Of a DNA stretch of 64,000 nt, positions 8,988-26,402 are shown in pieces. Under the pieces are notes generated by a model that had not been told where the DNA came from, did not search any database, and was given only the letters and a program-made list of their open reading frames with translations. Numbering within the stretch: position 1 is the stretch's first letter; every line of letters starts with the position of its first letter. The stretch spans positions 682,001 through 746,000 of the forward strand of contig NZ_CP031425.1 in NCBI RefSeq assembly GCF_003367705.1, given 5' to 3'. Source of the DNA: Microbacterium foliorum (GTDB lineage: Bacteria; Actinomycetota; Actinomycetes; Actinomycetales; Microbacteriaceae). Both the position numbers and the translations under genes were made by a program.

Positions 8988-8997
8988 GTCGCGCCTT

Positions 8998-9921
8998 TCA
9001 GGAGACGGATGCGGTGGCGGATGCGGTTGAGGAGGCGAGCTCGGTGCGCCAGCTGCGGGTCGGGTGCCAGCCGAGCAGGCGAGCGGCCTTGGCGGAGGAG
9101 AAAGCGGGGGCGCTCCCGGTCAGGGCCGCAGCCGCGTGCGCGGTGCCGGGATGGAACTGCGGAAGCAGCTCGCTGAGGGGGCGTCGGGCGAGTGCATCGT
9201 CGGCCCCGACGAAGAACACCTCCCCGTTCGGGATGTCGTCGAGGGCGGCGAGCAGCGTGCCGGTGAAGTCCGCGACGTCGCGGGCGTCGACGTAGTTGAA
9301 CAGTGCGGGCGCCGACAGCGCCGGGTCGTCGAGGCGCTCGCGCACGGTGTGCCCCTGCTGCGTCGGTGCACCCGCCCACTCCTCGGGAGCGACCACGTAG
9401 CAGGGGCGGAACGAGGCGAACCGCACATCGTCTCCCGTCTGACGTCGCAGCATCCCGACGGTCTGCTCGATCAGCAGCTTGGACAGCGCGTACGCGTTCC
9501 ACGGCTCGGTGGGCGAATCCTCGTCCAGGGGCAGACGCTCGGGGCTCCACCCCCGTGGAGCGCCGTAGCCGATCACCGTCGGACTCGACGCCGCGACGAC
9601 GCGACGGATGCCGGCGCGCACCGCCCCGCCCAGCACCGACTGCGCGAGTGCGGCGTTCGTGCGCAGGATCACATCCTCGGGCGCGCTGAACGGCACCGCG
9701 ATCGCCGCGAGGTGGATGAGAGCGTCGGCCTTCGTCCCGGCGAGTGCGGATGCCGTGGCATCGGCATCCGTGAGATCGAGCGGGAGCTGGGTGATCCCGG
9801 GGCGATCGAGGCCGTCCGTCGGCTGGCGATCGATCGACACGATCTCGTGCCCTGCTCCGACGAGGCCCGTCACGAGCGAGCGGCCGAGACGCCCGGACCC
9901 GCCGGTGACGACGATCCTCAT
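8998..9921 (-). CDS. NAD-dependent epimerase/dehydrogenase (extended SDR; uronate dehydrogenase-like)
   Basis: A 307-residue Rossmann-fold enzyme. Gly-rich NAD site TGGSGRLG at residues 6-13, Asp31 for NAD selectivity (SIDRQ), VAASSPTVIGYG near 109-120, and the catalytic pair Tyr144-x-x-x-Lys148 (YALSK). The Asp-ended second strand favours NAD over NADP. Within extended SDRs the ASS-TIGYG region and the neighbours point to an oxidation of a uronate to its lactone, but sugar nucleotide epimerases share the fold and this protein is longer than typical uronate dehydrogenase (about 265). It overlaps the upstream Gfo/Idh stop (ATGA) and is ten bases from the next gene. Confidence 0.75.
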   Translation of the reverse strand: MRIVVTGGSGRLGRSLVTGLVGAGHEIVSIDRQPTDGLDRPGITQLPLDLTDADATASALAGTKADALIHLAAIAVPFSAPEDVILRTNAALAQSVLGGAVRAGIRRVVAASSPTVIGYGAPRGWSPERLPLDEDSPTEPWNAYALSKLLIEQTVGMLRRQTGDDVRFASFRPCYVVAPEEWAGAPTQQGHTVRERLDDPALSAPALFNYVDARDVADFTGTLLAALDDIPNGEVFFVGADDALARRPLSELLPQFHPGTAHAAAALTGSAPAFSSAKAARLLGWHPTRSWRTELASSTASATASVS

Positions 9922-11246
9922 CCGTTCGCCAGCAGGGCGATGCCGAGGTCGGCGACCTTCACCGGCAGCCCCGTCTCGAGGGAGCGATTGCCGGCGATGC
10001 CGACGGCGATCGAGCGGATGCCGTCCGACCAGTCGGCCGGACGCGCGAGCGGGTCGTCGCCCGGCCCCTCGAAGACGTCCGACAGCAGCAGCTCGTCACC
10101 GCCGCCGTGTCCGCCGTCGCTGCCGTGGATCGGCACCTCGTAGGCCTCTTCCCAGTGTCGCTGCACGCGCAGCCGCTCGCCCTCCGGGCGCACGGCGGTC
10201 GTGCCGTCGGCCCCTGCGAGGCTCGGGTCGATGTGCGGGTGCAGCCCTTCACCGGCGAGCACCGCTCCGCGCTCGATCACCTCGAGCTCGGCGCGCCCGA
10301 GCGTGCCGTTGACGGCGACGCGGTATCCCTCCCAGGGCGAGTGGGCGTTGAGCGAGTACGACATCGTCGCGCCCGACGCGTAGTCGACGACGAGGGCGAG
10401 GTTGTCCTCGATCGTGATCCCTGCGCTGAAGACATCGAGATCGCGCCGATACCCGTCGTGCTCCTCCGCGTCGAGATACAGGGCCGTCAGCGTCTCATCG
10501 GCGCGCAGGTCGAGTTCAAAGAGGTCGCCGTCGTCGTGGGTGCCGCGGGCCGGACGCGCGCCCAGCCCCCGTGCCGCTGCATTGTCGGCGCCGTAGAAGC
10601 GCAGCCCGCCCGAGGCGAAGACGCGGGTGGGCTGCGAGCGGATCCACCAGTTGACGAGGTCGAAGTGGTGACTCGACTTGTGCACGAGCAGCCCGCCGGA
10701 GTTCTTCTTCTCGCGATGCCAGCGGCGGAAGTAGTCGGCTCCGTGGTTGGTGTCGAGCATCCACGAGAAGTCGATCGAGGTGACCTCGCCGATCGTGCCG
10801 TCCTGGATCACCTGGCGCAGCGCGCTGTTGCGCGGCGAGTAGCGGTAGTTGAAGGTGAGCACGACCTGACGGCCGGTGCGTGCGACCGCGTCCTCGATAC
10901 GGGCAGCGCTCGCCGCATCGATCGTGAGCGGCTTCTCGACGACCACGTCGGCGCCGGCCTCGAGCGAGCGGACGATCAGTTCGGCGTGCAGATCGTCGCG
11001 CGCGCAGATGATCACCCTGTCGACGCGCTCGTCGCGGATCACGCTCTCGAGCTCGTCGGGTGTGGCGAGTCGGGGAGCGGGTGCGCCCTCTTCGGCGACC
11101 CAGGCGGCGTGGTAGGCGGCGCGGACCGGGTTCGGCTCGACGATCGCGACGAGCTCGGCGCGCTCGCTGTGCGCACCGAGGATCGCTCCGACGTACATCT
11201 GCGCGCGGACTCCGGCGCCGGCCAGTGCGTAACGGGTCTTCGTCAT
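9918..11246 (-). CDS. Gfo/Idh/MocA family oxidoreductase
   Basis: A 442-residue NAD(P)-dependent sugar or inositol dehydrogenase-type protein. The N-terminal Rossmann domain has ALAGAGVRAQMY near residues 6-17 and the conserved VVEKPLTID segment with the catalytic-region Lys. The C-terminal alpha/beta domain contains HHFDLVNWW. ATG 11246 is used because GAGGA lies just upstream and it begins directly before the first beta strand; the frame extends upstream into the operator region without a start signal. First gene of a four-gene overlapping operon, directly behind a LacI-type palindrome. Substrate unknown; an acidic sugar or its lactone would suit the operon. Confidence 0.88.
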   Translation of the reverse strand: MTKTRYALAGAGVRAQMYVGAILGAHSERAELVAIVEPNPVRAAYHAAWVAEEGAPAPRLATPDELESVIRDERVDRVIICARDDLHAELIVRSLEAGADVVVEKPLTIDAASAARIEDAVARTGRQVVLTFNYRYSPRNSALRQVIQDGTIGEVTSIDFSWMLDTNHGADYFRRWHREKKNSGGLLVHKSSHHFDLVNWWIRSQPTRVFASGGLRFYGADNAAARGLGARPARGTHDDGDLFELDLRADETLTALYLDAEEHDGYRRDLDVFSAGITIEDNLALVVDYASGATMSYSLNAHSPWEGYRVAVNGTLGRAELEVIERGAVLAGEGLHPHIDPSLAGADGTTAVRPEGERLRVQRHWEEAYEVPIHGSDGGHGGGDELLLSDVFEGPGDDPLARPADWSDGIRSIAVGIAGNRSLETGLPVKVADLGIALLANG

Positions 11247-11272
11247 GGTGATCCTCTTCGATCCAGCAGCCA

Positions 11273-11284
11273 GGAAACGTTTTC
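11273..11284. promoter_or_regulatory. LacI-type operator before the uronate-type operon
   Basis: GGAAACGTTTTC, with the perfect core AAACGTTT (11275-11282), is 27 bases upstream of the Gfo/Idh start. It matches the CG-centred consensus of LacI/GalR family sites and resembles the sites at 12387, 19835, 26336, 26403 and 31366. Confidence 0.65.
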
Positions 11285-11333
11285 TCGACGATATCACAGG
11301 CCCGATGGCCCATCGGAGGATGCTCAGGTCAGG

Positions 11334-12338
11334 TCAGGTCGCAGACGGCGGGGCGGTGCTGCCGCGCACGACGAGCGTCGGAGTCATCGTGTGCGTCGAC
11401 CTCGGTGCGACGCCGGTGAGCTGCGCGTGCATCGCGGCCCATGCGGCCGCACCGATCTCGACGGCAGGAACCGCGTCGGTCGTGAGGGGCGGTGACGTGT
11501 AGGCGGCGAACGGGATGTCATCGAACCCGGTGATCGACAGCGCCCCCGGCACGTCGATCCCTCGCGCGGTCACCGCCGAGAGCAGGCCCATCGCGACGAG
11601 GTCGTTGTAGGCGATCACGGCCGTCGCACCACTCGCGAGCACCCGGTCGGCGGCCGCGGTGCCGCTGTCGATGTCGACACCGGCGGTGAGCTCCTCGACC
11701 TCCAGTCCCGCGGTTCTCGAGATCGCTGCCGCGATCGCCTGCTGTCGAGCCCGATGGGTCACGCTGCGGGTGGCGCCGGCGAGGTACACGAGGCGGCGAT
11801 GACCGAGCGAGGTCAGGTGGTCGACGATGTCGCGCATGCCCGCGCCGTAGTCCGCACCGACCGTCGGAGCTGTCCCCTGCGGTCCGCGGTTGATCACGAC
11901 AGCGGGGGAGAGCGAGGGCAGCAGCTGCGCCAGATCCTGCTCCGCCATGCGAGGGGCGCAGAGGATGACGCCGTCGGTGCGCAGTCGCGTGGTCCGTGCG
12001 AGGGCGTGCTCCTCGTCGAGATCCTCGCGCGAGTCGGCCACGAGCACGTGGTAGCCGTCGGCCGTCGCGGCGCGACTGAGCCCGCGCAGGATCGCCTGGA
12101 ACGTGGGGTTCTCGAGGTCGGGGATGACGACGGCGACGGTCTGGGTGCGACCGAGTACGAGGCTGCGCGCCACCGGATTGGCGGTGTAGCCGAGTTCGGC
12201 GGCGGCGGCCTGGACGCGTTGCGCGAGAGCGGGGTCTACGGTCGGATTGCCGTTCATCGCCCGGGACACGGTCGACAGCGAGACGCCGGCGAGTCTCGCG
12301 ACGTCGGCGATGCCGGCGCGTGACGATTCGCGGGCCAT
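11334..12338 (-). CDS. LacI family transcriptional regulator
   Basis: A DNA-binding repressor of about 334 residues. The N-terminal headpiece IADVARLAGVSLSTVSRAMN is canonical, with the hinge SLVLGRTQTVAVVIP and a periplasmic-binding-protein-like sensor domain ending in GFDDIPFAAYTSPPLT. The start ATG at 12338 is preferred over 12344 because GAAGGG abuts the earlier ATG but is six bases from this one. It is upstream of, and on the same strand as, the uronate-type operon and divergent from the M24-like gene, with a LacI-type operator (12387-12398) in the shared region. It probably controls both units and itself. Its inducer is likely a sugar acid or rhamnogalacturonan fragment; this is inference. 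Confidence 0.93.
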   Translation of the reverse strand: MARESSRAGIADVARLAGVSLSTVSRAMNGNPTVDPALAQRVQAAAAELGYTANPVARSLVLGRTQTVAVVIPDLENPTFQAILRGLSRAATADGYHVLVADSREDLDEEHALARTTRLRTDGVILCAPRMAEQDLAQLLPSLSPAVVINRGPQGTAPTVGADYGAGMRDIVDHLTSLGHRRLVYLAGATRSVTHRARQQAIAAAISRTAGLEVEELTAGVDIDSGTAAADRVLASGATAVIAYNDLVAMGLLSAVTARGIDVPGALSITGFDDIPFAAYTSPPLTTDAVPAVEIGAAAWAAMHAQLTGVAPRSTHTMTPTLVVRGSTAPPSAT

Positions 12339-12386
12339 CGGCATCCCTTCGCTCCGCGATCGGCCGCGGCTGTCGTCATACTACGA

Positions 12387-13616: not shown

Positions 13617-15014
13617 TCAGCGCGGGTCGAAGCGCTCCGGTGCGTGGGTCGCGGCGACGAGGGCGCGCAGCTCGTCGAGCGACGCCGGCGCGGCACCGAG
13701 GGCACGCGCCTGCACGAGTACGTTGCCGAGGGCCGTCGCCTCCACAGGTCCGGCCAGCACCGGAAGGCCGGTGCGATCGGCCGTCGCCTGGCAGAGCAGG
13801 CGGTTCAAGGATCCGCCACCCACCATGTGGATGCAGTCGAGCTCACGGCCTGACAGAGCGGATGCCGTCTGCACCGCATCCGCGAAGGCCATGGCGATCG
13901 ACTCGACGATCGACCGGGCGAACGCGGGGCGCGTCGCAGGAGCCGCGGAACCGAGAAGCGTCGCGATGCGTGCGGGCATGTCGCCCGGGGCGCTGAGCGA
14001 TGGGTCGTTCGCGTCGAAGGTCGGCACGTCGCCCGTGACGGCGGATGCCGCGGCGAGCAGCTCGGGCAGGTCTATCGACGATCCGTCGGTCGCCTCCCAG
14101 GCGCGCACCGTCTCGCTCAGCAGCCAGAGCCCCGTCACGTTGTGCAGGAACCGGTATCGGCCGTCGACGCCGAGCTCGTGCGTGAAGTTCGCCTGGCGTG
14201 CAGCATCCGTCAGCACGGGTTCCGTCAGCTCGACACCGACCAGCCCCCACGTGCCGCACGAGATGTAGGCCGAACGCGGCGTCGACAGGGGAGCGGCGAC
14301 GACAGCGGATGCCGTGTCGTGCGAGCCGACGGCGATCACGGGCAGATCTCTGCCGATGCGCGCGGCCAGTCCGGCATGGAGCATGCCGATCGTCGTACCC
14401 GGATCCACGAGCCCGGGCAGGATGCCCGAGGGGATGCCGAGTCGATCGGCCAGCTCGGTGTCCCACTCGCCAGTCTCGACGCCGAGCAGCCCCGTCGTCG
14501 ACGCGTTGGTGCGCTCGGCGGCGGCGGCGCCCGTGAGCAGGAACGCGATGAGGTCGGGGATCAGCAGCGCGGTCTCGGCGTCGGCGAGGCGTGCGTCGAC
14601 GCGGTACTGGTACAGCGTGTTGAACGGCAGGAACTGCAGTCCGTTGCGCCGGTAGAGCTCGGCGAACGGCGCCTCGGCGTGCACCTCGGCGACGCCGCGC
14701 GCCGTGCGGTCGTCACGGTAGTGGAACGGTTCGGCGAGCAGCTCCCCGTCACCGACGAGGCCGTAGTCGACGGCCCATGAGTCGATGCCGATGCTCTCGA
14801 TGCCCGGCTCTCGCCGCACGGCCTCGGCGAGGCCCGCGACCACGTGCTCGAACAGAGCGCCGAAGTCCCAGTGCAGGCCGTCCTCGCGCTCGACGGGCCC
14901 GTTCGGGAATCGCGCGACGAGTTCGAGGTCGAGCCGGTCGTCGCCGATCCGCCCGATCATGACGCGACCGCTGGTCGCCCCGAGGTCGACGGCGGCGACA
15001 GCGGTGACGGTCAT
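13617..15014 (-). CDS. rhaB: rhamnulokinase
   Basis: A cytoplasmic FGGY-family kinase of 465 residues that phosphorylates L-rhamnulose with ATP to rhamnulose 1-phosphate. The N-terminal phosphate loop VDLGATSGRVM, the ID(S)WAVDYGL segment, HDTASAV, GTWGLVGVEL and MVGGGSLNRLLCQATAD are typical of RhaB rather than xylulokinase. It is the last gene of the left-reading rhamnose operon; a 256-bp gap filled with inverted repeats separates it from the aldolase gene, which may affect read-through or message stability. Its context (mutarotase, isomerase and aldolase upstream) supports the assignment strongly. Confidence 0.93.
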   Translation of the reverse strand: MTVTAVAAVDLGATSGRVMIGRIGDDRLDLELVARFPNGPVEREDGLHWDFGALFEHVVAGLAEAVRREPGIESIGIDSWAVDYGLVGDGELLAEPFHYRDDRTARGVAEVHAEAPFAELYRRNGLQFLPFNTLYQYRVDARLADAETALLIPDLIAFLLTGAAAAERTNASTTGLLGVETGEWDTELADRLGIPSGILPGLVDPGTTIGMLHAGLAARIGRDLPVIAVGSHDTASAVVAAPLSTPRSAYISCGTWGLVGVELTEPVLTDAARQANFTHELGVDGRYRFLHNVTGLWLLSETVRAWEATDGSSIDLPELLAAASAVTGDVPTFDANDPSLSAPGDMPARIATLLGSAAPATRPAFARSIVESIAMAFADAVQTASALSGRELDCIHMVGGGSLNRLLCQATADRTGLPVLAGPVEATALGNVLVQARALGAAPASLDELRALVAATHAPERFDPR

Positions 15015-15270: not shown

Positions 15271-17322
15271 TCATCGCAGGAACGCCGCGGCGACGCCGGA
15301 ATCCACCGGGATGTGCAGGCCGGTGGTGCGGCTGAGTTCGGGGCCGGTGAGCACGTAGACGGCATCCGCCACGTTCTCGGGCACGACTTCGCGCTTGAGG
15401 ATCGTGCGGTTGGCGTAGAACTGACCGAGGTCCTCTTCGGCGACGCCGTAGGTGGCGGCGCGGTTGGCACCCCAGCCCGAGGCGAAGATGCCCGAGCCAC
15501 GCACGACGCCGTCGGGGTTGATGCCGTTGACGCGAATGCCGTATTCACCGAGCTCGACGGCCAGCAGCCGTACCTGGTGCGCCTGGTCGGCCTTGGTCGC
15601 CGAGTAGGCGATGTTGTTCGGGCCCGCGAAGACGGAGTTCTTCGACGAGATGTAGATGATGTCGCCGCCGAGCTTCTGATCGATCAGCACGCGGGCTGCG
15701 GCCTTCGACACCAGGAACGACCCCTTGGCCATGACGTCGTGCTGCAGGTCCCAGTCCTTCTCGGTGGTCTCGAGCAGCGGCTTCGACAGCGAGAGCCCGG
15801 CGTTGTTGACGACGAGGTCGACGCCGCCGAACGCGAGCACGGCGTCGTTCACCGCGGCCTGGATGGCATCGGCATCCGCGACGTTCGCCGCCACACCGAT
15901 GGCCACATCCGTCGAACCGAGCTCGGCGGCGGCGGCCTGCGCCTTCTCGAGGTCGAGGTCGGCGATGACGACGCAGGCGCCCTCGGCCGCGAGGCGGGTG
16001 GCGATGGCCTTGCCGATGCCGCTGGCGGCACCGGTGACGAAGGCGATGCGGCCCTGGTGCGACTTCGGCTTCGGCATCCGCTGCAGCTTCGCCTCCTCCA
16101 GCGCCCAGTACTCGATGGCGAACTTCTCGGCGTCGGAGATGGGGGAGTAGGTCGACAGCGCCTCGGCACCGCGCATCACGTTGATGGCGTTGACATAGAA
16201 CTCGCCGGCGACGCGGGCTGTCTGCTTGTTCGCACCGTACGAGAACATCCCGATGCCGGGGACGAGGACGATCAGCGGGTCGGCGCCCCGGATCACGGGC
16301 GACTCCGCGGTCGCGTGCGCGTCGTAGTAAGCCTGGTAGTCGGCACGGTACTCGGCGTGCAGCTCGTGCAGGCGGGCGATCTGCTCGTCTACGGATGCCG
16401 TGACCGGCAGATCGAGGATCAGCGGCTTGACCTTGGTGCGCAGGAAGTGGTCGGGGCAGCTGGTGCCGAGGGCAGCGAGCTCGGGCGCGCGCTCGGAGGC
16501 GAGGAAGTCGAGCACGACGTCGGAGTCGGTGAAGTGGCCGACCATCGGCTTGTCGGTCGACGCGATGCCGCGGATGGTGCCGGCGAGGGCCGCCGCGCGA
16601 TCGCGGCGCTCGGCCTCGGGGAGCGCCGCGAATCCGGCACGGACGCCACCGAACGGATCGGCCGTGCCGTTCGCCGCGATGTAGGCGGCTGCGGTGTCGA
16701 TGATCCACAGCGAGTTCGCCTCGGCCTCCTCCGACGTGTCCCCCCAGGCGGTGATGCCGTGCCCGCCGAGGATCGTGCCGATCGCCTGCGGGTTCTGGGC
16801 CTTGATCGCGGCGATGTCGAGTCCGAGCTGGAAGCCGGGTCGGCGCCACGGCACCCAGACGACACGCTGCCCACCAGCACCGTCGCCGAAGATCTTCGCG
16901 GTCAGCGCCTCGCCGTCGACGGCTGTGGCGATCGCGATTCCGGAGTCGGGGTGCAGGTGGTCGACGTGCGCGGCGTCGACGAGGCCGTGCATCGCGGTGT
17001 CGATCGACGGGGCGGCACCGCCCTTGCCGTGCAGGCAGTAGTCGAACGCCGCGACCATCTCGTCTTCGCGCTCGAGGCCGGGGTAGACGTCGACGAGCGC
17101 GCGCATGCGGTCGAGGCGCAGCACGGCGAGTCCCTGCTCCGTCAGCGTGCCCAGGTCGCCGCCCGAGCCCTTGACCCACATCAGCTCGACCGGCTGCCCG
17201 GTGACGGGGTCGATCGCGGTGCCCTTCGCCGACGTGTTGCCGCCCGCGTAGTTGGTGTTCTTGGGGTCGGCGCCGAGGCGGTTCGACCGCTCGATGAGGG
17301 CGGCGGCGGTGGGGTTCGTCAT
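15271..17322 (-). CDS. bifunctional rhamnulose-1-phosphate aldolase / L-lactaldehyde (short-chain) dehydrogenase
   Basis: A 683-residue fusion. Residues 1-410 form a class II aldolase/adducin-type domain (GGNTSAKG near 28-35, zinc ligands His122 and His124 in HVDHLHPDSG, GGHGITAWG), splitting rhamnulose 1-phosphate into DHAP and L-lactaldehyde. Residues about 430-683 form a short-chain dehydrogenase (VTGAASGIGKAIA, NNAGLS, YSATK) that should oxidise the lactaldehyde. This fused form (RhaE/YuxG type) is the usual Gram-positive solution. ATG 17322 is used since it overlaps the hydrolase stop (ATGA) and has AAGGA upstream; the frame stays open further upstream but inside the neighbour. Keeping toxic lactaldehyde next to its oxidase is a plausible benefit. 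Confidence 0.93.
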   Translation of the reverse strand: MTNPTAAALIERSNRLGADPKNTNYAGGNTSAKGTAIDPVTGQPVELMWVKGSGGDLGTLTEQGLAVLRLDRMRALVDVYPGLEREDEMVAAFDYCLHGKGGAAPSIDTAMHGLVDAAHVDHLHPDSGIAIATAVDGEALTAKIFGDGAGGQRVVWVPWRRPGFQLGLDIAAIKAQNPQAIGTILGGHGITAWGDTSEEAEANSLWIIDTAAAYIAANGTADPFGGVRAGFAALPEAERRDRAAALAGTIRGIASTDKPMVGHFTDSDVVLDFLASERAPELAALGTSCPDHFLRTKVKPLILDLPVTASVDEQIARLHELHAEYRADYQAYYDAHATAESPVIRGADPLIVLVPGIGMFSYGANKQTARVAGEFYVNAINVMRGAEALSTYSPISDAEKFAIEYWALEEAKLQRMPKPKSHQGRIAFVTGAASGIGKAIATRLAAEGACVVIADLDLEKAQAAAAELGSTDVAIGVAANVADADAIQAAVNDAVLAFGGVDLVVNNAGLSLSKPLLETTEKDWDLQHDVMAKGSFLVSKAAARVLIDQKLGGDIIYISSKNSVFAGPNNIAYSATKADQAHQVRLLAVELGEYGIRVNGINPDGVVRGSGIFASGWGANRAATYGVAEEDLGQFYANRTILKREVVPENVADAVYVLTGPELSRTTGLHIPVDSGVAAAFLR

Positions 17323-18173
17323 GGCTGTTCCTTGTTCTCGGGAGAAGTGGCGAGGATGCGGGCGGCGAAGCGATCGATCGATGCGGTCGCACCCGGGTGT
17401 TCCGGACGGTTGAGGTGGCCGTGGCGGGTGCCGGGCTCGGTCGAGATGTCGAGGTCGACGCCTGCGTCGCGCAGGGACGCGCCGAACGCCTCGCCGGAGA
17501 CGCGCAGCTCGTCGACCTCGTCGTTGATCATGATCGTGGCGGGAAAGCGCGAGAGCTGTGCGGGGGATGCTGTGCCGGGCACGGCGTAGATCTCTGCGCT
17601 CTCGACGGGCCCGCCGAGATAGTTCTCGTACATGACGCGCACGGGGTCGGGCCCGAATGTGTCGGCGTCGGGATCTGCGTCGAGCGCGGCGCGCAGCGCG
17701 GCATCCGGGTGTCCCTGCACGGCGTGCAGGGTCGGGTAGGCGAGCACGGCGAGCGCCGGAACGGGACCCGCCCCGTGACTCAGCCGCAGGGCGGCACCCG
17801 CGGCGAGGTTGCCGCCGGCGCTCGCTCCGCCGATCGACCAGGGGCCGCGGGCGAGATCGGAATCCACGGCCCACCGGAACGCGGCCTCGACCTCGTCGGA
17901 GGCGACGGGGTAGTGCACGCCCTCGCGCTCGGGGGCTTCGGACGCCGCGGCCCAGGCCAGGGGGAACGGCGCGAGCGCATAGTCCACCGAGACCACCGCG
18001 ATGCCGCGGTCGGCGAAGCTCCGCGCCACCCAGTCGGCCTCCGGCATGTCGATCTCGCCGGCGAGGAAACCGCCGCCGTGCACCCAGACGAGCCCCGGGC
18101 CCGCGGGACTCTCGGGCGTGTACACGCGCACGCGCAGCGGTCCGTGCGGTCCGTCGAGCACCTGGTCGCTCAC
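17319..18173 (-). CDS. alpha/beta hydrolase (hormone-sensitive lipase-like esterase) in the rhamnose operon
   Basis: A 284-residue esterase. The oxyanion-hole motif HGGGF, nucleophile motif GASAGGN, acidic residue in INDEVDELR and final His in RHGHLNRP make a complete HSL-type catalytic set. No signal peptide, so cytoplasmic. I use GTG 18173; an ATG at 18227 in the same frame lies inside a 14-bp hairpin and would add 18 unconserved-looking residues. The gene sits between rhaI and the aldolase fusion with a four-base overlap to the latter. Removal of acetyl groups from imported rhamnose-containing oligosaccharides is an attractive role, but that is inference. Confidence 0.85.
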   Translation of the reverse strand: MSDQVLDGPHGPLRVRVYTPESPAGPGLVWVHGGGFLAGEIDMPEADWVARSFADRGIAVVSVDYALAPFPLAWAAASEAPEREGVHYPVASDEVEAAFRWAVDSDLARGPWSIGGASAGGNLAAGAALRLSHGAGPVPALAVLAYPTLHAVQGHPDAALRAALDADPDADTFGPDPVRVMYENYLGGPVESAEIYAVPGTASPAQLSRFPATIMINDEVDELRVSGEAFGASLRDAGVDLDISTEPGTRHGHLNRPEHPGATASIDRFAARILATSPENKEQP

Positions 18174-18198
18174 AGCATCGTCCGTTCTGTCGGTGGGG

Positions 18199-18234
18199 CG
18201 TCGGGATGCGGGGATCGGCTCCCGCATCCCGACG
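18199..18234. promoter_or_regulatory. perfect hairpin between rhaI and the esterase gene
   Basis: CGTCGGGATGCGGG (18199-18212) pairs perfectly with CCCGCATCCCGACG (18221-18234) around an eight-base loop. It lies within the operon, just upstream of the esterase start, without a T-run. It could be a partial terminator, an mRNA-processing site or a 3'-end stabiliser giving rhaM-rhaI higher expression than the downstream genes. Confidence 0.6.
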
Positions 18235-18260: not shown

Positions 18261-19427
18261 TCAGGCGCCCCAGCCGGCCTGCACTCCGCCGACGCGCTCT
18301 GCGGCGATCTTCTGCTGGTAGCCCGAGTCGGCATAGGCCTTCATCGGGTCTGCGGCCAGACCGCGCGACTCGCGCCATTCAGCGAGAGCCGGGCGCACGT
18401 CGGTGTAGAAGGCGTCCATGAAGACGGCGTTCGCGGCGAGCACGTCGCCGGACCTCTGCGCCGCAGCCAGGGCGTCGCGGTCGACGAGCAGTGCGCGCGC
18501 CGTCATCTCCTGCACATTGAGCACCGAGCGGATCTGGCCGGGGATCTTGTCCTCGACGTTGTGGCACTGGTCGAGCATGAACGCCACGTCGGGGTTGTTC
18601 AGGCCGCCGCCGCGTACGACCTCGAACAGGATGCGGAACAGCTGGAACGGGTCGGCCGCCCCGACGATCAGGTCGTCGTCGGCGTAGAAGCGCGAGTTGA
18701 AGTCGAACGAGCCGAGCTTGCCGAGACGCAGCAGCTGCATCACGATGAACTCGATGTTGGTGCCGGGGGCATGGTGGCCGGTGTCGAGGCAGACCGAGGC
18801 CTTGTCGCCGAGCGCGACGACCTGTGCGTAGGACGTGCCCCAGTCCGGAACATCGGTGTGGTAGAAAGCCGGCTCGAAGAACTTGTACTCGAGCACGAGG
18901 CGCTGCTCGTCGCCCAGGCGCGCGTAGATCGTCTGCAGCGACTCCTGCAGACGATCCTGGCGGCCGCGCATGTCGGCCTGGCCCGGGTAGTTCGAGCCTT
19001 CGGCCAGCCAGATCTTCAGGTCGCGGCTGCCGGTGGCATCCATCACGTCGATGCAGGCGAGGTGGTGATCGATCGCCTTGCGGCGGATCGCCGCATCTTC
19101 GTGGGTCAGGGCGCCGAACTTGTAGTCGTCGTCCTGGAAGGTGTTGGAGTTGACCGTGCCGAGAGAGACGCCGAGGTCTTCTGCATAGGCCCGCAGATCG
19201 GAGAACGAGTCGACGAGATCCCACGGAATGTGCAGCGCGACCGAGGGAGCGAGCGCGGTGTAGGTGTTGACCTGCGCGGCATCCGCGATCTTCTCCCACG
19301 GGTCGCGCGGGGTGCCGGGGGTGCCGAACACCTTGAAGCGGGTGCCGGAGTTGCCGAACGCCCAGCTGGGGAGCTCGATGCCCTGCTTCTCGAGGGCGGC
19401 GAGGTTGTCGGACGAGAGGATGCTCAT
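18261..19427 (-). CDS. rhaI: L-rhamnose isomerase
   Basis: A 388-residue metal-dependent TIM-barrel isomerase converting L-rhamnose to L-rhamnulose. The sequence fits the Gram-positive/Pseudomonas RhaI type (about 390 residues) rather than enterobacterial RhaA: VNTYTALAPSVALHIPWD, LEYKFFEPAFYHTDVPDWG with the Glu metal ligand, CLDTGHHAPGTNIE and FDFNSRFYADDD supply the Mn2+/Mg2+ ligands. ATG 19427 overlaps the rhaM stop by four bases, fixing the start; the open frame continues upstream only as a shadow of rhaM. It is followed by a hairpin and the esterase gene. Confidence 0.95.
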   Translation of the reverse strand: MSILSSDNLAALEKQGIELPSWAFGNSGTRFKVFGTPGTPRDPWEKIADAAQVNTYTALAPSVALHIPWDLVDSFSDLRAYAEDLGVSLGTVNSNTFQDDDYKFGALTHEDAAIRRKAIDHHLACIDVMDATGSRDLKIWLAEGSNYPGQADMRGRQDRLQESLQTIYARLGDEQRLVLEYKFFEPAFYHTDVPDWGTSYAQVVALGDKASVCLDTGHHAPGTNIEFIVMQLLRLGKLGSFDFNSRFYADDDLIVGAADPFQLFRILFEVVRGGGLNNPDVAFMLDQCHNVEDKIPGQIRSVLNVQEMTARALLVDRDALAAAQRSGDVLAANAVFMDAFYTDVRPALAEWRESRGLAADPMKAYADSGYQQKIAAERVGGVQAGWGA

Positions 19428-19920: not shown

Positions 19921-22900
19921 TCACCTCACCGTCACGGTCACACTCTTCGAGACCGTGGTGCCCGCGGTGTTCGAGAACTCGGCGACATAGGAGTAGGTGC
20001 CGGGTGCGCGACCGGTGATCGCGGTCTGCGCGCGCTGCGCTGAGGGGGACGCCGCCACCAGAGCCTGGGTGTCGATCAGAACCCCGTTCTCGTACAACCG
20101 GTATTCGGTGCCGTTCGTGCCCCACCAGAGGTCGGTGGTCACGGTGTAGCTGCCGTCGCGATCCCCATTGTCGTGGCTGACCACGGGCAGCCCTGGGGCG
20201 GCATCCTTCACTCTGACGGTGACGGATGTCGTGGATGTCGTGCCCTTCGCGTTGGTCAGCTCGCCCGTGTACACATACGTGCCGTTCGTGCGGCCGCTCA
20301 CCGAGACGGTGGTGAGCTGTGCCTTCGGCGAGTTCGCATCGAGGAGCTTCGTCGTAATGAGCGTCCCGTTCTCGTAGAGGCGGAACACCGCCCCGTTCAC
20401 GCCGTGCCAGAGGTTCATCGACACGGTGAACGCGCCATCGTGCAGACCGGTGTCCCAGCCCGAGTCCGTCGACAGCGTGCCGCGGGCGGGTTTCGCCGTC
20501 GGACGCTCGTCGTCGTAGACCAGGATCTGCGCCTCCGCACGCGTGACCAGGCCGTCATGGTTGACCGCGTTGGCGGTCACCGTGTGGGGCCCGACGAGGC
20601 CGGCCAGGTCGATCGTCTGGCCCGGGGCGACAGGTTCTCCGTCGAAGGTGACGTCGAGCGTCCGCACCCCCGACTCGGGATCGGCGGCCGTCACGTCGAC
20701 GGTGAAGGTGGACGTGCTGGCGAACAGGGAGCCGTCCGCAGGCATCCCCGACACCACGGGAGCCGTCTGATCGGCTGCCCCCGACGGGTCGCCGGTGACC
20801 GCGATGCGCGGAGCCGGCGGCTGTTCCATGCCGTCACCGAGGAAGAAGCTCGTCTGCGGCGGCTGGTTGTATCCGGTGTTCTGCCAGGCGACGGAGAGTC
20901 GATACACCGGGTCGTGCATCAGGGTCCGCAGACGCAGATCCGTCTCGTCGGCGGTCGAGTAGATCCGCAGCTCGGTCGAGTCGTCGGAGCGCCAGGCGAT
21001 CTCCTCGCGCCAGTCGCCGAAGAGGTCCGCCTGCAGGTTCGGCGTGCCCTTGGTGCTGTTGTTGGAGAGAGCGCCCTCCGCCTTCAGGATCACGTCGCTG
21101 GACTCCGTCTCCCCGTTCCACTTCGACACGGTCGGCACACCCGCGGACGTGTCGGCGTTCCAGTCGTGATCGACGATCTCCCGCAGCGGGTCTCCGTCGA
21201 ACCAGGCGAGGAAGTTCGCCGCAGGGATCCGTTCGCCGATGAGCTCACCGGTCGACGAGCGCAGCTGGCCGACGGGGGAGTTCCACGCGGCATCACCGCC
21301 GATCGCCCAGCCCTCGGCGCCCTCGTACCGGGGGTCGATGTCGGCGGAGGCTGCACGACCGGTGTCCTTGGCCGCAGGAATCGACCACAGAACCTCACCG
21401 GTGCGCGCGTCGCGCATCGTCGCACCGACGTTGCCCGAGGCGTTCATCTCCTCGTGTGCGGCGAACACCTCGAGGCCGGGGTTCGAGGGCACGAGGTCCG
21501 AGACGTGGATCGCGTCGCCGTGACCGAGGCCGGTGGAGTACAGGAGTGTGCCGTCGTCGTCGACCGTGGCCGATCCGTAGACGATCTCGTCCTTCTGGTC
21601 GCCGTCGACGTCGGCGACCGACAGGTTGTGGTTGCCCATCCCGTAGAAGCCCTCGTCACCGGAGTCATCCGAGTCGAGCACCCAGCGCTGGGTGAGCGAT
21701 GTGCCGTCGAAGTCGTACGCCGCCATCACGGCCCGGGTGTAGTACCCGCGGCTGAAGATCGCACTGGGGTGCTCGCCGTCGAGATACGCGGTCGCCGCCA
21801 GGAAGCGATCGACCCGGTTGCCGTAGCTGTCGCCCCACGAGCCGACGTCGCCTCGGGCCGGCACGTAGTCCACGGTGTCGACCGCAGCTCCCGTCAGTCC
21901 GGTGAAGACGCTGAGGTACTCGGGGCCGGTGAGCACGTAGCCCGTGCTGTTGCGGTGGTCGGCGCTGGCGTTGCCGATGGGCTGGCCCACGCCGTCGATC
22001 GTGCCGTCCGCGGTCTTCATGACCACCTCGGCGCGGCCGTCGCCGTCGTAGTCGAACACCTGGAACTGCGTGTAGTGGGCGCCCGCCCGGATGTTCACCC
22101 CCAGGTCGATGCGCCACAGGCGCGTGCCGTCGAGACGGTAGGCGTCGAGGTACACGTTGCCGGTGTATCCCGACTGCGAGTTGTCCTTCGAGTTCGAGGG
22201 GTCCCATTTGACGAGGATCTCGTACTGCCCGTCGCCGTCGAGATCTCCGACGCTCGCATCGTTGGCGCGGTACGAGTACGGCTGACCGTCCTTCGTGTAG
22301 GCGTCGGCGGGCTTGTCGAGCGGGATGGAGAGGTGATCGCCGGCCTGGACTCCGAACTGGTCGGTCACCGTGACCTCGCGATCGTCGAGGACGCTCGTGA
22401 CGTAGTACGTCGAGTCGCCCGAGCCGTCGGCGTCGAGGACGTTGGTCGAGTCGGTGATCGGCTCGTCCGTGATGCGGGTGCCGTCGCGGTAGACGTGGAA
22501 GGCGATCGCATCGGGGTCGGTGCCGAGCATGCGCCAGCTGACCAGCACGCCGTCGTCCGTCTGCACTGCTGCGGGCGCACGGTCGAGGTACTCGGCCTGC
22601 CGCTGCAGCACGGTGGCCGCCTCCGTGCTCAGCTGCGAGGAGTCGGGCCCCGCACCACCCGCGTTCACCGCGACAGCGGTGTAGTGGTACGGGATCGTGG
22701 TCAGCACGGCGGTGTCGACGAAGCGGTTCGCGGTGGCGAAGCCGGCGAGTTCGCCGCGCTCCCCCTCGATCTCGGAGCGGAAGATCATCGTGTAGACCGC
22801 GGTGCTCGGCTGCGCCCACGAGATCTCGACCTCGCGCTTCTCGAGCCGGTCGACCGCGAGGGCGGTGGGTGCGGACGGCGCGTCGACGGCCGCATCCACC

Positions 22901-25900
22901 AGAGACACGTCGACGGATGCCGACGGCACCGACTCCAGTCCGGTCTGATCGACAGCGGTCACGTGATACGTGTAATCGAGCCCGAGGCGCGCACCGGTGT
23001 CGATGAACGAGGCGGCCGTCGTCTCGCCGACCGGCGTCGACGACGTCTCGAACGCCGAGGTGCGGTACACCTTCCAGGTCATCCCGGGCTCGGCGGTCCA
23101 CGCGAGAGAGACGGTCGGTGCCGCGGGATCCGCGTTCACGTCCGTCACCTCGAGGTCGGCAGGGCCGAGCAGGATCGGGGTCACCTCGATGCCGTTGAGG
23201 CGTGTCCCCGCGGCGGCGCCGTGCACGCGCACGGTGAGCTGACCGTCTGTGACGAGCACCGGGCCGCGGACCGAGGCATTCACGGACCCGGAGCCGGCGT
23301 TGCCCGTGCCGAAGGCCTTGCCCTCGATGTCGACGTTCGTCCGGGTGGAGCCGATCCAGTCTCCGGAGTAGGTCTTGACCGAGTAGGTGCCGTTCGGCAC
23401 GTCCAGCAGGAACTCGCTCGAGTCGCCGGGGAGGACGAAGTCTCGCTCGAGGTCGCTCGCGCCGCCGGCGGTCCCGCGGTCGCGCCCGGCGTTCGCGGCC
23501 AGAGGCGTCGCGAAGCCGAACCCGGAGTCGGTCGTGTATCCGTCCTCGGGGTTCACCTCGGTGTAGCCGGGCATCACGGCCCCGCCGGCCAGCTGGAAGT
23601 CGAACTTCCACTTCGCCTGCTTGGTCGAGAAGCTCACGGTGTTCGATGCGTCCGAGACGCCCCGGCCGTTCACCGCGAACACGCGGTAGCGGTACCCCGC
23701 GCCCTCGGCGAGGCCCTGCACGATGGCGCTCGTCTGCGTGGTCGTGGTCACCAGCGCCCAGACCTGCTCGGGGTCGGCGGTGGCCTGGCGCTCGATGCGG
23801 TAGACGTCCGCGCCCGGCGACGCGTTCCACTGCAGCACGGCACCGGCATTCGAGACGGAGCCGGCCACGAGGTTCGCAGGCGCGGCCGGCACCGCGGCCG
23901 GCGGCTCGACGTCGACGACCTTCGCGGCGAGGGGGTCGTCGAGGGCGCTGACGTCCTGAGCGATGAGGCGCGCCATCTGGATCGCACCGTAGTCCTGGAA
24001 GTGCGTGTCGTCCTGGGTGCCGGACGGGCGGCCGGGGAAGATGCCCGGATCGACCCAGAGGAACACCGACTTCGCCGCCTCGGGACCGATCTCGTCGAGG
24101 TAGGCGCGGCTCGATGCCGACAGGTCGACGAGCGGGACGTCTTCCTCCGCTGCGAGCTCGATCATCTTCGCCACGTACTCGGGGAAGCTCACGGTGGCAG
24201 CCCCCGTCGCGGCGTCGAAGCTGCGACGTGAGACGGGGGTGACGAGCACGGGGGTGGCGCCGCGCTGGCGGGCTCCCTGCACGTAACCGCGCAGATACTC
24301 CTTGTAGTCGGCGGGAGACGCGTAGCGATCGTCGACGCCCTGAGTCGCGTCGTTGTGTCCGAACTGCACGAACAGATAGTCGCCGGGGCGGATTCCGCGG
24401 AGGATCTCGTCGAGACGACCCTGCGTGATGAAGTTCTTCGAGGACCGTCCGCCTATCGCGTGGTTCGCGAATGCGACGTCATCGGCGAAGAAGCGGTCGA
24501 TCATCTGGCCCCACCCCGCCTGCGGCGCGAAGGCGTCGGTGTAGGTCTGGACGGTCGAGTCGCCGGCGAGGTAGACCGTCGGCAGCGCTCCGGGCGTGCG
24601 GCTCGTCTGGCGAGTGATGGTGAGCGCGTCGAGCGCCGCGGCCGAACCGCCGACCTGCAGGGTCAGACGGCCATCGATGAGAGCGATCGGGAATGCCATC
24701 TCGAGGTACTCGCCGGCGGGCTTCGAGGTCGTCTGCACCTTGGCGATGCCCTCTGCGGTGATCGCGATCTCGCTCGCGGCACTGCGGTCGCCCGCGATGA
24801 CGGCGACGGTGTAGTCGCCTGCGCCGAGCTGCACCTCGAAGGTGCCGCCGTGGGCGGCGACATGATCTCCGCGCAGCGGATCGTCGCCGCCGCGGTCGAC
24901 ATCGGCGTGTGCGGAGGACGGGGCGGTGCTGAAGCCGTATCCCCACTCGTCGGAGAATCCGACGGACGAGGTGACGCCGACGGCGCCGTCGGCAAGGGCC
25001 CCGGGACCGAAGTCGAAGACGATCCGGTCGCCGGCAGGCAGGGGAGCGGGCGCTGCGTAGACCGCGGAGTCGACGGCGGCGGATGCGGCGGAGGTGCCTG
25101 CCGTGTTGCGCGCGGTCACCCGGTACGACCAGCTCTGCGACGTGTCGACCTCATCGGTGAATGCGGGTGCCGCCACCGTGGCGACGGCGGAGAAGAGCCC
25201 GTCGGCGCCCGCGCGCTCGACGACGTACTCGTCGGCATTCGATGTCGCGGTCCAGGTCAGTGCGACCGCATCCCTCGTCACCTGCGCGACCGCGAGTCCC
25301 TCGGGAGTCGCAGGAACGGCGAGGGCGGGGATCGCGCCGCTGCGCACCTCGGGGCTGCGTGCGGACACGAGCCCGTAGGAGTTGACGGCCTCAACCGTGT
25401 AGGCGAAGGCGTCGCCCTCGGCGACATCGGTGTCGGAGTACGTCGTCGCCTCGATCTCGTCGATCTGGCGGAACTCGCCGACCGCATCGCCGTCGACGTC
25501 CGCTCGCAGGATCCGGTACGCCGTGGCGCCGTCTGCGGCAGCCCAGGACAGATCGACCGCGTTCCAGGCGACTTCGGCGACCGCGAGGTCTGCCGGCACC
25601 GCCGGGAGCACCGGTGCGACGACGATCCCGTTGACGTAGGCGCCGAGGCCGCTCCCCGTGAAGCCCACGGTCAGCTGTCCGTCTTCGACCTTCGTGCGGA
25701 ACGTCTCGGTCGTGGACCCGCCCTTGGCGGTCGTGAGTCGTGTCTGTGCGACCCCTTCGAGAGTGAGCGTCGCGTTGGTGCTCGATGCCGTCGTCAGCGC
25801 GTCGCCGATCGTCACGGTCACGTCGTACTCACCGGCGGGGATGCTGTCGAGCAGGAAGCCCCACGATGTCCCGCCGACGAAGTCCTCCGCCACCGGATCC

Positions 25901-26208
25901 GCGGGGGTGCGGTTGCCGGTGCGGTCACGGGCGAACAGCGCGACGCCGTCGGGAACCGTCACTCCCCACCCCGACGCGGCCGTGTAGAGGGAGGTCGGAC
26001 GCACTGGCTCGTATCCCTCGGCGACCGGGCTCGTGGCCGTGCCGAAGTCGAATCGCCAGGCGCCGTCTGCGGACGGCTCGAGCGCGGCCGCCGCCGGAAC
26101 GGCGGTCATGGTCGCGCCGATCACTGCGGCGATCGTGGCGGTGGCAAGACCTGCGCGCAGGCTCGGGAACGGGCGGGACTTTCGTGCAGAACGGGTGGAG
26201 TGCTCCAC
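19921..26208 (-). CDS. secreted multidomain rhamnogalacturonan acetylesterase-like / PL11 rhamnogalacturonan lyase fusion
   Basis: A 2095-residue exported protein. GTG 26208 follows AAGGAGG at six bases and opens a signal peptide (basic start, hydrophobic LATATIAAVIGATMTAV, cut after AAA near 43). Then: beta-sandwich domain (about 53-205), two FN3 domains (206-390), second beta-sandwich (395-530), SGNH esterase (about 540-760; GDSTVQTY near 548, GHND near 617, DDTHF near 733) as in rhamnogalacturonan acetylesterases, FN3, third beta-sandwich, FN3 pair (to about 1200), a PL11 lyase propeller (about 1206-1800; RAGAHYTQFQVFDYDGDGRA near 1369, GYNQPP and a SFFLG end), an Ig-like domain and two 90-residue repeats with LYENG motifs. 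It should deacetylate and cleave the rhamnogalacturonan-I backbone outside the cell. No sortase or membrane anchor is seen. Individual activities are inferred from motifs. Confidence 0.92.
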   Translation of the reverse strand: MEHSTRSARKSRPFPSLRAGLATATIAAVIGATMTAVPAAAALEPSADGAWRFDFGTATSPVAEGYEPVRPTSLYTAASGWGVTVPDGVALFARDRTGNRTPADPVAEDFVGGTSWGFLLDSIPAGEYDVTVTIGDALTTASSTNATLTLEGVAQTRLTTAKGGSTTETFRTKVEDGQLTVGFTGSGLGAYVNGIVVAPVLPAVPADLAVAEVAWNAVDLSWAAADGATAYRILRADVDGDAVGEFRQIDEIEATTYSDTDVAEGDAFAYTVEAVNSYGLVSARSPEVRSGAIPALAVPATPEGLAVAQVTRDAVALTWTATSNADEYVVERAGADGLFSAVATVAAPAFTDEVDTSQSWSYRVTARNTAGTSAASAAVDSAVYAAPAPLPAGDRIVFDFGPGALADGAVGVTSSVGFSDEWGYGFSTAPSSAHADVDRGGDDPLRGDHVAAHGGTFEVQLGAGDYTVAVIAGDRSAASEIAITAEGIAKVQTTSKPAGEYLEMAFPIALIDGRLTLQVGGSAAALDALTITRQTSRTPGALPTVYLAGDSTVQTYTDAFAPQAGWGQMIDRFFADDVAFANHAIGGRSSKNFITQGRLDEILRGIRPGDYLFVQFGHNDATQGVDDRYASPADYKEYLRGYVQGARQRGATPVLVTPVSRRSFDAATGAATVSFPEYVAKMIELAAEEDVPLVDLSASSRAYLDEIGPEAAKSVFLWVDPGIFPGRPSGTQDDTHFQDYGAIQMARLIAQDVSALDDPLAAKVVDVEPPAAVPAAPANLVAGSVSNAGAVLQWNASPGADVYRIERQATADPEQVWALVTTTTQTSAIVQGLAEGAGYRYRVFAVNGRGVSDASNTVSFSTKQAKWKFDFQLAGGAVMPGYTEVNPEDGYTTDSGFGFATPLAANAGRDRGTAGGASDLERDFVLPGDSSEFLLDVPNGTYSVKTYSGDWIGSTRTNVDIEGKAFGTGNAGSGSVNASVRGPVLVTDGQLTVRVHGAAAGTRLNGIEVTPILLGPADLEVTDVNADPAAPTVSLAWTAEPGMTWKVYRTSAFETSSTPVGETTAASFIDTGARLGLDYTYHVTAVDQTGLESVPSASVDVSLVDAAVDAPSAPTALAVDRLEKREVEISWAQPSTAVYTMIFRSEIEGERGELAGFATANRFVDTAVLTTIPYHYTAVAVNAGGAGPDSSQLSTEAATVLQRQAEYLDRAPAAVQTDDGVLVSWRMLGTDPDAIAFHVYRDGTRITDEPITDSTNVLDADGSGDSTYYVTSVLDDREVTVTDQFGVQAGDHLSIPLDKPADAYTKDGQPYSYRANDASVGDLDGDGQYEILVKWDPSNSKDNSQSGYTGNVYLDAYRLDGTRLWRIDLGVNIRAGAHYTQFQVFDYDGDGRAEVVMKTADGTIDGVGQPIGNASADHRNSTGYVLTGPEYLSVFTGLTGAAVDTVDYVPARGDVGSWGDSYGNRVDRFLAATAYLDGEHPSAIFSRGYYTRAVMAAYDFDGTSLTQRWVLDSDDSGDEGFYGMGNHNLSVADVDGDQKDEIVYGSATVDDDGTLLYSTGLGHGDAIHVSDLVPSNPGLEVFAAHEEMNASGNVGATMRDARTGEVLWSIPAAKDTGRAASADIDPRYEGAEGWAIGGDAAWNSPVGQLRSSTGELIGERIPAANFLAWFDGDPLREIVDHDWNADTSAGVPTVSKWNGETESSDVILKAEGALSNNSTKGTPNLQADLFGDWREEIAWRSDDSTELRIYSTADETDLRLRTLMHDPVYRLSVAWQNTGYNQPPQTSFFLGDGMEQPPAPRIAVTGDPSGAADQTAPVVSGMPADGSLFASTSTFTVDVTAADPESGVRTLDVTFDGEPVAPGQTIDLAGLVGPHTVTANAVNHDGLVTRAEAQILVYDDERPTAKPARGTLSTDSGWDTGLHDGAFTVSMNLWHGVNGAVFRLYENGTLITTKLLDANSPKAQLTTVSVSGRTNGTYVYTGELTNAKGTTSTTSVTVRVKDAAPGLPVVSHDNGDRDGSYTVTTDLWWGTNGTEYRLYENGVLIDTQALVAASPSAQRAQTAITGRAPGTYSYVAEFSNTAGTTVSKSVTVTVR

Positions 26209-26335
26209 GGTTCCTCCTTGGACATCACTGGCTAAGGGGTACGACTGAGAGACCCGCATCGGTGCGGATATCAAAAGGGGGAGCCGAGGCGAAGAGACCA
26301 CTTCGTCTCGGCCGATCGATGGATCCGGATGGCCC

Positions 26336-26349
26336 GGAAAACGTATTCC
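26336..26349. promoter_or_regulatory. LacI-type operator upstream of the lyase gene
   Basis: GGAAAACGTATTCC is palindromic at 12 of 14 positions with an ACGT core. It is about 130 bases upstream of the lyase GTG in a 270-bp non-coding interval (26209-26478) that otherwise holds the RBS and no gene. Confidence 0.6.
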
Positions 26350-26402
26350 CGAGGGTTGGCACGATCCTTGCATGCGGCCGGAGGCGGAGGCAAGAACTTT
26401 CT

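Follow-up and report, generated by a model that had tools for sequence, protein, structure and literature searches.

Proteins that combine a CE12 carbohydrate esterase and a PL11 rhamnogalacturonan lyase in a single chain have been predicted before. In 2014, a lyase-first order, with PL11 before CE12, was reported in ruminococci (PMC4081043). In 2018, Pamy_4308 of Paenibacillus amylolyticus 27C64, a 188-kDa protein with a signal peptide and assigned to PL11, CE12, and CBM37, was described as having a high fold change on rhamnogalacturonan I (RG-I). Its authors stated that a single enzyme with both CE12 and PL11 was then undescribed and that the rhamnogalacturonan lyases characterised until then were inhibited by acetylation, and they proposed that Pamy_4308 cleaves acetylated RG-I directly (PMC6339884). 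By 2023, CAZy held 50 CE12+PL11_1 proteins, one of which had been modelled and none of which, to the knowledge of those authors, had been characterised (PMC10483417).

The gene considered here occupies, on the minus strand, positions 19921-26208, stop codon included, of a 64,000-nucleotide stretch of Microbacterium foliorum (contig NZ_CP031425.1, positions 682,001 to 746,000; hereafter the window), and its product of 2,095 residues joins this already predicted CE12-PL11 kind. A preliminary description of the window had suggested that the architecture might be undescribed and knew of no characterisation of it. The first part of that statement fails because chains with CE12 and PL11 were already in print in 2014, 2018, and 2023: the same fusion has been described (PMC6339884, PMC10483417; in the other order, PMC4081043). 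The second part stands, both according to PMC10483417, for its 50 proteins, and by our own search, which found no biochemical characterisation of a CE12-PL11 fusion in the open-licence literature, most subscription journals lying outside its scope. What is new here is a CE12 subclade, at least 65% identical, whose 26 members in 297 genomes of the order are all fused to PL11, the occurrence of the two halves as adjacent genes, a Paenibacillus-like PL11-CE12-CE12 form, and an insert shared by the fused lyases.

Taken together, the findings make it highly probable that the product is a secreted multimodular enzyme that deacetylates and then cleaves RG-I. In this model, galactose-binding-like and chitinase-N-like modules would hold the enzyme on pectin while the CE12 domain strips acetyl groups from the galacturonate of RG-I. 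The PL11 propeller would then break the exposed rhamnose-galacturonate bond by beta-elimination, and the short products would be imported and degraded, partly via rhamnose and uronate genes of the window. The same idea of deacetylation followed by cleavage had been put forward in the preliminary description, and sequence and comparative evidence lend it support. A natural esterase-lyase fusion of this sort would offer a straightforward means of breaking down pectin.

Domain organisation and catalytic residues

The first in-frame ATG, at 26373, would extend the frame to 19921-26373 and the product to 2,150 residues. The GTG at 26208, which bounds the gene in the preliminary description, is nevertheless the better start, because it is preceded by AAGGAGG at a spacing of five bases and followed at once by a signal-peptide-like stretch; the 2,095-residue product is thus favoured. 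Residue numbers throughout are those of the 2,150-residue form. In this numbering, the N terminus (residues 56-97; 26083-26208), judged by eye without a program, consists of a basic stretch, a hydrophobic core, and an AAAA end, and the protein is predicted to be secreted.

A Pfam search located the RGI_lyase domain at 1258-1340 (E 1.1e-30, 106 bits against a cut-off of 27.8) and RGL11_C at 1348-1855 (E 7.2e-247, 820 bits against a cut-off of 27). In addition, two GDSL profiles matched inside 600-804, AGA-YXIM_GBD matched in three stretches, fn3 in two, and ChitinaseA_N in two at the tail. The heights of these scores argue that the assignment is not due to chance. In a sequence search, the solved relatives of residues 1257-1864 were YesX, a Bacillus licheniformis PL11 (4cag), and YesW. 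Residues 452-781 align with YxiM (2o14), which spans a binding domain and an esterase and which we take to be a CE12 member (E 6e-41), and the Aspergillus rhamnogalacturonan acetylesterase 1deo matches 599-677 (E 7e-11 over 79 residues). Accordingly, the protein consists of a YxiM-like N-terminal half and a YesX/YesW-like C-terminal half, linked by an FN3-GBD-FN3-FN3 stretch, GBD being a galactose-binding domain.

Along the chain, the leader-like N terminus is followed by a galactose-binding-like module (residues 105-253; 25615-26061), which is 39% identical to the protein's own GBD2 and is taken as one of the three AGA-YXIM_GBD stretches, one to which the Pfam search assigned no position. Next come two FN3 modules (257-440; 25054-25605), where FN3 and titin chains match 257-345 and 348-455, the galactose-binding domain that precedes the esterase (452-590; 24604-25020) and falls within the alignment to YxiM, and the CE12 SGNH acetylesterase domain itself (598-812; 23938-24582), which is identified by Pfam, by solved relatives, and by invariant catalytic residues. 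The central stretch comprises an FN3 linker (828-917; 23623-23892; Pfam fn3 at 831-915), the AGA-YXIM galactose-binding domain GBD2 (920-1063; 23185-23616; best Pfam stretch 922-1057), and FN3-like linkers (1065-1255; 22609-23181), in which a weak fibronectin-chain match covers 1053-1157 and the division into two modules is our own. The lyase half consists of the RG-I lyase beta-sheet domain (1258-1347; 22333-22602), placed by Pfam and alignment, and the PL11 propeller (1348-1857; 20803-22332), placed in addition by a structure model. It is followed by an immunoglobulin (Ig)-like domain (1858-1960; 20494-20802), for which a model and a Big_7 match below the cut-off (E 0.0098) speak, and by two ChitinaseA_N-like repeats (1961-2060, 20194-20493; 2061-2150, 19924-20193). 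Thus, the CE12-type SGNH set and the full PL11 that had been read in one 2,095-residue chain are both confirmed by Pfam and solved relatives, the FN3 and carbohydrate-binding-like modules said to join them are recovered as fn3 and AGA-YXIM_GBD matches, and the two terminal LYENG repeats coincide with the two ChitinaseA_N matches. The same architecture is conserved in other species.

The PL11 part, folded from a 25-row alignment, gave a predicted local distance difference test (pLDDT) score of 81.8 and a predicted template modelling (pTM) score of 0.84. In Foldseek, the model resembles YesX (2zuy), YesW (2z8r), and 4cag with template modelling (TM) scores of 0.91-0.94, which bears out the propeller fold. 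A model of the LYENG tail reached pLDDT 93.2. Its best 50 Foldseek matches were mostly Ig/FN3-type proteins at TM scores of about 0.2-0.3, the top three being chains of one Bacteroides glucan-binding protein; no sugar-binding role is accordingly claimed for the tail from structure. The LYENG repeats (1961-2150) also recur in Paenibacillus polymyxa proteins with chitinase-N domains and in a Clavibacter xylanase (plasmid matches), and they may be a general accessory module for wall polysaccharides.

The motifs expected of CE12 are the serine of GDS, an oxyanion glycine with the asparagine of GxND, and Asp-x-x-His. All are present: Ser606 in the GDST block (24556-24558), the predicted nucleophile; Gly641/Gly642 at the oxyanion position; Asn674 in GHND; and Asp788 and His791 in DDTH (24001-24012), which are predicted to act as acid and base within the triad. 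A Ser-Asp-His triad is also named for CE12 in PMC10483417. These residues are identical in 129 of 129 fused rows, which comprise the window protein, 48 rows from a genome search, and 80 from a scan of genome contigs; the two sources overlap (22 shared PL11 sequences), and the 129 rows reduce to 107 distinct sequences of PL11. For the lyase, the residues of YesW that contact rhamnose are reportedly N152, D172, N532, G533, T534, and Y595 (Ochiai and others, 2009). Their equivalents in the window protein are N1371, D1391, N1772, S1773, T1774, and Y1835. Thus, five of the six are retained, and G533 is replaced by serine, as it is in 14 of the 48 other fused rows. Among those 48, the N532, T534, and Y595 positions are invariant, the N152 position is Asn in 46, the D172 position is Asp in 26, and the G533 position is Gly in 21.

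Dead domains sometimes persist in large modular proteins, and one half of the fusion might accordingly be a degenerate, non-catalytic relic used for binding. The serine at the G533 position and the lack of Asp at the D172 position in 22 of the 48 other fused rows would fit such a relic. Against it stand the CE12 catalytic residues, without exception in 129 rows, and the three invariant contact positions of the lyase, and a relic is considered very improbable. Both catalytic activities are predicted for the protein.

Spread of the fusion and of its esterase

The PL11 profile was run against 366 genomes of the genus, and 92 of them gave a match at E <=1e-100. All 59 of the PL11 genes scoring above 700 bits were read; 48 are fused in frame to CE12, spread over 48 genomes including that of the window, and 11 are unfused. 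Of the 366 genomes, 48 carry the architecture. At the same threshold, PL11 was found in 25 of 398 genomes of the family and in 11 of 396 in a spread across the phylum. Among the PL11 genes read outside the genus, one (L062, in genome G042 of another family of the order) is fused, and those at L065, L066, and L131-L137 are unfused. The window strain, whose 3.57-Mb genome is a single contig, has a second PL11 gene (L058, C1:3262687-3264558), which is unfused; its profile match is broken in two, which suggests an insert inside the propeller. Partial PL11 matches of this kind, at about 360-410 bits, number 77 and occur in 76 of the 92 PL11-bearing genomes of the genus.

A scan of genome contigs with patterns from the CE12 part yielded 526 relatives, and in each of the best 80, which were kept, CE12 and PL11 share one open frame. 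Because the scan ranks by likeness to the fusion, this 80/80 is uninformative on the frequency of unfused CE12. The 80 loci lie in Actinomycetota and Paenibacillaceae, in Microbacterium, Paenibacillus, Cohnella, Cellulomonas, Sanguibacter, Demequina, Isoptericola, Ruania, Cryobacterium, Paraoerskovia, Pseudokineococcus, Arthrobacter, and Pseudarthrobacter. Two records bear names outside these genera: a fragment of an Acidimicrobiia metagenome-assembled genome and 'Planococcus' L165, whose label is probably wrong.

The CE12 domain was also searched alone (E <=1e-30) in 297 genomes of the order, which gave 52 matches in 38 genomes. The 26 matches of at least 65% identity all sit in frames of 1,514-2,185 residues, and no frame of the 26 weaker matches exceeds 1,018. 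In 26 of 26 of the closer matches, PL11 shares the frame, as judged for 20 by place, strand, and frame length (less than 2 kb from CE12) and for 6 by reading. The three nearest unfused CE12 domains are 62, 60, and 55% identical, and two of their genes lie directly upstream of a PL11 gene. At L218 (3390-7571), a GBD-CE12-FN3-GBD gene of 666 residues is followed, after an 84-base gap, by an RGI-PL11 gene of 698 residues with its own leader-like N terminus, so that the pair keeps the module order of the fusion. At L219 (4569-7623), the CE12 and PL11 genes are separated by 118 bases. In these pairs, the two halves of the fusion sit side by side, as they would ahead of a joining event or in the wake of a split. 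The third gene, at L220, is GBD-CE12-GBD, with no PL11 match within the 10 kb read.

The reverse order was found in the Paenibacillus algorifonticola genus, a database grouping of 51 genomes, 41 of which have a CE12 match at 1e-40. Twenty of these matches, in 19 genomes, are at least 62% identical and lie in frames of 1,992-2,379 residues, with PL11 confirmed for G1414 only; many weaker matches belong to frames that, at a few hundred residues, could not accommodate a fusion. Two CE12 domains share a frame in 11 of the 51 genomes. The four such proteins that were read (L221-L224; 1,875-2,110 residues) are all PL11-CE12-CE12, with Ser, Asn, Asp, and His intact in both esterases.

A single clade of fused PL11 was rejected in a quick tree (approximately unbiased test, p 1e-4) that compared 31 fused representatives, the 129 rows thinned at 82% identity, with 37 unfused rows. 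In this tree, the fused lyases of Paenibacillaceae and Actinomycetota stand apart, with unfused lyases between them and among those of Actinomycetota. The CE12 tree needs two state changes for the fused rows, because two long-branch unfused rows fall beside them, and one change suffices in 14% of bootstrap trees; its unfused rows number only 7 and are a biased sample, chosen for nearness to PL11 genes. The fusion may have had one origin with later losses or several origins, and the reverse order favours more than one fusion event.

Mode of cutting by the lyase

YesX, which is titled 'exotype' in the PDB, has extra residues (437-447) that are absent from YesW in the alignment. This loop reportedly serves in chain-end recognition, and YesX without it is said to become endo-acting (Ochiai and others, 2009). 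At the same position, the window protein carries an insert, IGGDAAWNSPV (residues 1691-1701; 21271-21303). Relative to YesW, YesX has nine additional residues, and the fused rows have ten in 127 of 129 and nine and twelve in the other two; in four reverse-order proteins, the alignment shows ten. The insert thus keeps its length, and its sequence varies between phyla. YesW, 4cag, two Bacteroides finegoldii, and three Streptomyces-type PL11s have from none to three additional residues, the last two groups one to three. According to PMC8787155, Bo3128 of Bacteroides ovatus, of which the B. finegoldii genes may be counterparts, is 'also an endo-RGL' (rhamnogalacturonan lyase).

Since the insert stands where exo-acting YesX has one and YesW has none, exo-type cutting by the fused PL11 would be predicted, with a likelihood slightly over one half. 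Two observations detract from this prediction: 23 of 31 unfused PL11 rows (one an empty fragment) also have nine or more additional residues, and VIA-align ties YesX with YesW and 4cag as the structural neighbour of the PL11 model. Foldseek places YesX first, and a separation of exo from endo by structural neighbours was consequently rejected, as one program favours YesX and the other gives a tie. The lyase half might instead be endo-acting like YesW, with the insert an ordinary surface loop that has no role in chain-end recognition. The probability of this falls a little short of even, given that the position and length of the insert (nine to twelve residues) are held across all 129 fused rows as well as the four reverse-order fusions, that the other PL11s named above have at most three, and that YesX ranks first in Foldseek.

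A broader hypothesis, which is tentative and rather less probable than exo-type cutting itself, holds that these proteins form a 'strip and trim' class. In this class, a nearly exclusively fused CE12 subfamily and an exo-type PL11 would deacetylate and shorten the chain from one end, and the two would have been joined repeatedly, in both orders, by selection for their coupling. CE12-PL11 fusions as such are widespread; the adjacent-gene pair, the CE12-first and lyase-first forms, and the common insert offer constructs for testing both whether fusion accelerates the reaction and whether the lyases act at the chain end.

Gene surroundings, substrate, and known systems

Rhamnose genes lie beside the fusion gene on the same strand. 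They comprise an L-rhamnose isomerase (18261-19427; TIGR02635, 629 bits, over the cut-off), a bifunctional rhamnulose-1-phosphate aldolase/dehydrogenase (15271-17322; TIGR02632, over the cut-off), and a rhamnulokinase-like FGGY kinase (13617-15014; TIGR02627, 393 bits, below the cut-off of 528); an alpha/beta hydrolase (17319-18227) and a LacI-type regulator (11334-12344), both also on the minus strand, are neighbours. Further along this strand are a 5-dehydro-4-deoxyglucarate dehydratase-like gene (KdgD-type, uronate catabolism; 8088-8987), over the cut-off for NF002958 and below that for TIGR03249, and an enolase-superfamily gene (6940-8091), perhaps for a sugar-acid dehydratase or cycloisomerase, with all NCBIfam matches below cut-off. 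The L-rhamnose and probable uronate genes would correspond to the two sugars that make up the RG-I backbone. The KdgD-type and enolase-superfamily genes stand in a row with NAD-dependent epimerase-like and Gfo/Idh/MocA genes (6940-11297, minus strand), which is a possible uronate pathway. Parts of this row also adjoin the fusion at L140, L148, L152, and L154.

Elsewhere, rhamnose genes were found near 0 of the 11 unfused PL11 loci of the genus set. The scan loci that have them include one Ruania, which also carries a GH106 rhamnosidase, and one Pseudokineococcus. The Paenibacillus L158 locus has a two-component system and a solute-binding protein; at L212, none of such genes was among the three neighbours tested. 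In the whole genome of the window strain, there was no match to the GH106 profile, and the GH78 catalytic profile gave two matches over the cut-off (64 and 28 bits), both partial; three control genomes matched below it.

Several observations weigh against the deacetylate-then-cleave model proposed above. A general link between the fusion and rhamnose genes was looked for and not found: these occur at 7 of 80 scan loci and at 8 of 48 fused genes, sets that overlap and of which most stretches of the second, that of 48, extend only about 3 kb beyond the gene. No GH88 or GH105 profile matched in the whole genome of the strain, and the usual next step on the unsaturated product is therefore missing or unknown. 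In NCBIfam, the protein has sub-threshold matches only, and the sole esterase among them is a partial match, far under the cut-off, to the pectin acetylesterase PaeY. Finally, the substrates of CE12 are given as pectin, rhamnogalacturonan, and xylan in PMC10483417. Because the nearest solved relative is YxiM and CE12 covers pectin and xylan too, specificity of the esterase for RG-I acetyl groups is a prediction.

The esterase half might then act on other acetylated polymers, such as homogalacturonan or xylan, and the fusion would serve co-delivery without direct coupling. The pectin and xylan acetylesterases of CE12 and the PaeY match could be read in this way, and nothing in the FN3/GBD linkers, about 440 residues long, points to a fixed geometry. 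This explanation is nonetheless judged unlikely, since, among the 297 genomes of the order, every one of the 26 members of this CE12 subclade shares its chain with a rhamnogalacturonan lyase and since both the CE12-PL11 and PL11-CE12 orders occur. The preferred reading remains an enzyme whose two activities would act in synergy on RG-I.

Among known systems, Bacillus subtilis YxiM, with its galactose-binding domain and esterase, resembles the N-terminal half of the window protein, and YesX and YesW, with a beta domain and PL11, resemble the C-terminal half; in B. subtilis, YxiM and YesX/YesW are separate proteins. Pamy_4308 is like the window protein in having PL11 and CE12 in one chain and differs in its CBM37 call and phylum; its module order is ambiguous in the table and could be either (PMC6339884). 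PL11-Doc-CBM35-CE12 of Ruminococcus flavefaciens and PL11-CE12-CBM13-CBM13-CBM37 of R. albus have the same two catalytic families with the lyase first, the one with a dockerin and the other with CBM37 attachment (PMC4081043). HUW50_16055 of Metabacillus has CE12 first and PL11 last, as here, with a conserved triad and a proposed synergy, but has a predicted CBM35 between the domains and a PL11 that ends at residue 1,423 (PMC10483417), whereas the window protein has GBD and FN3 modules, an extra tail, and 2,095 residues.

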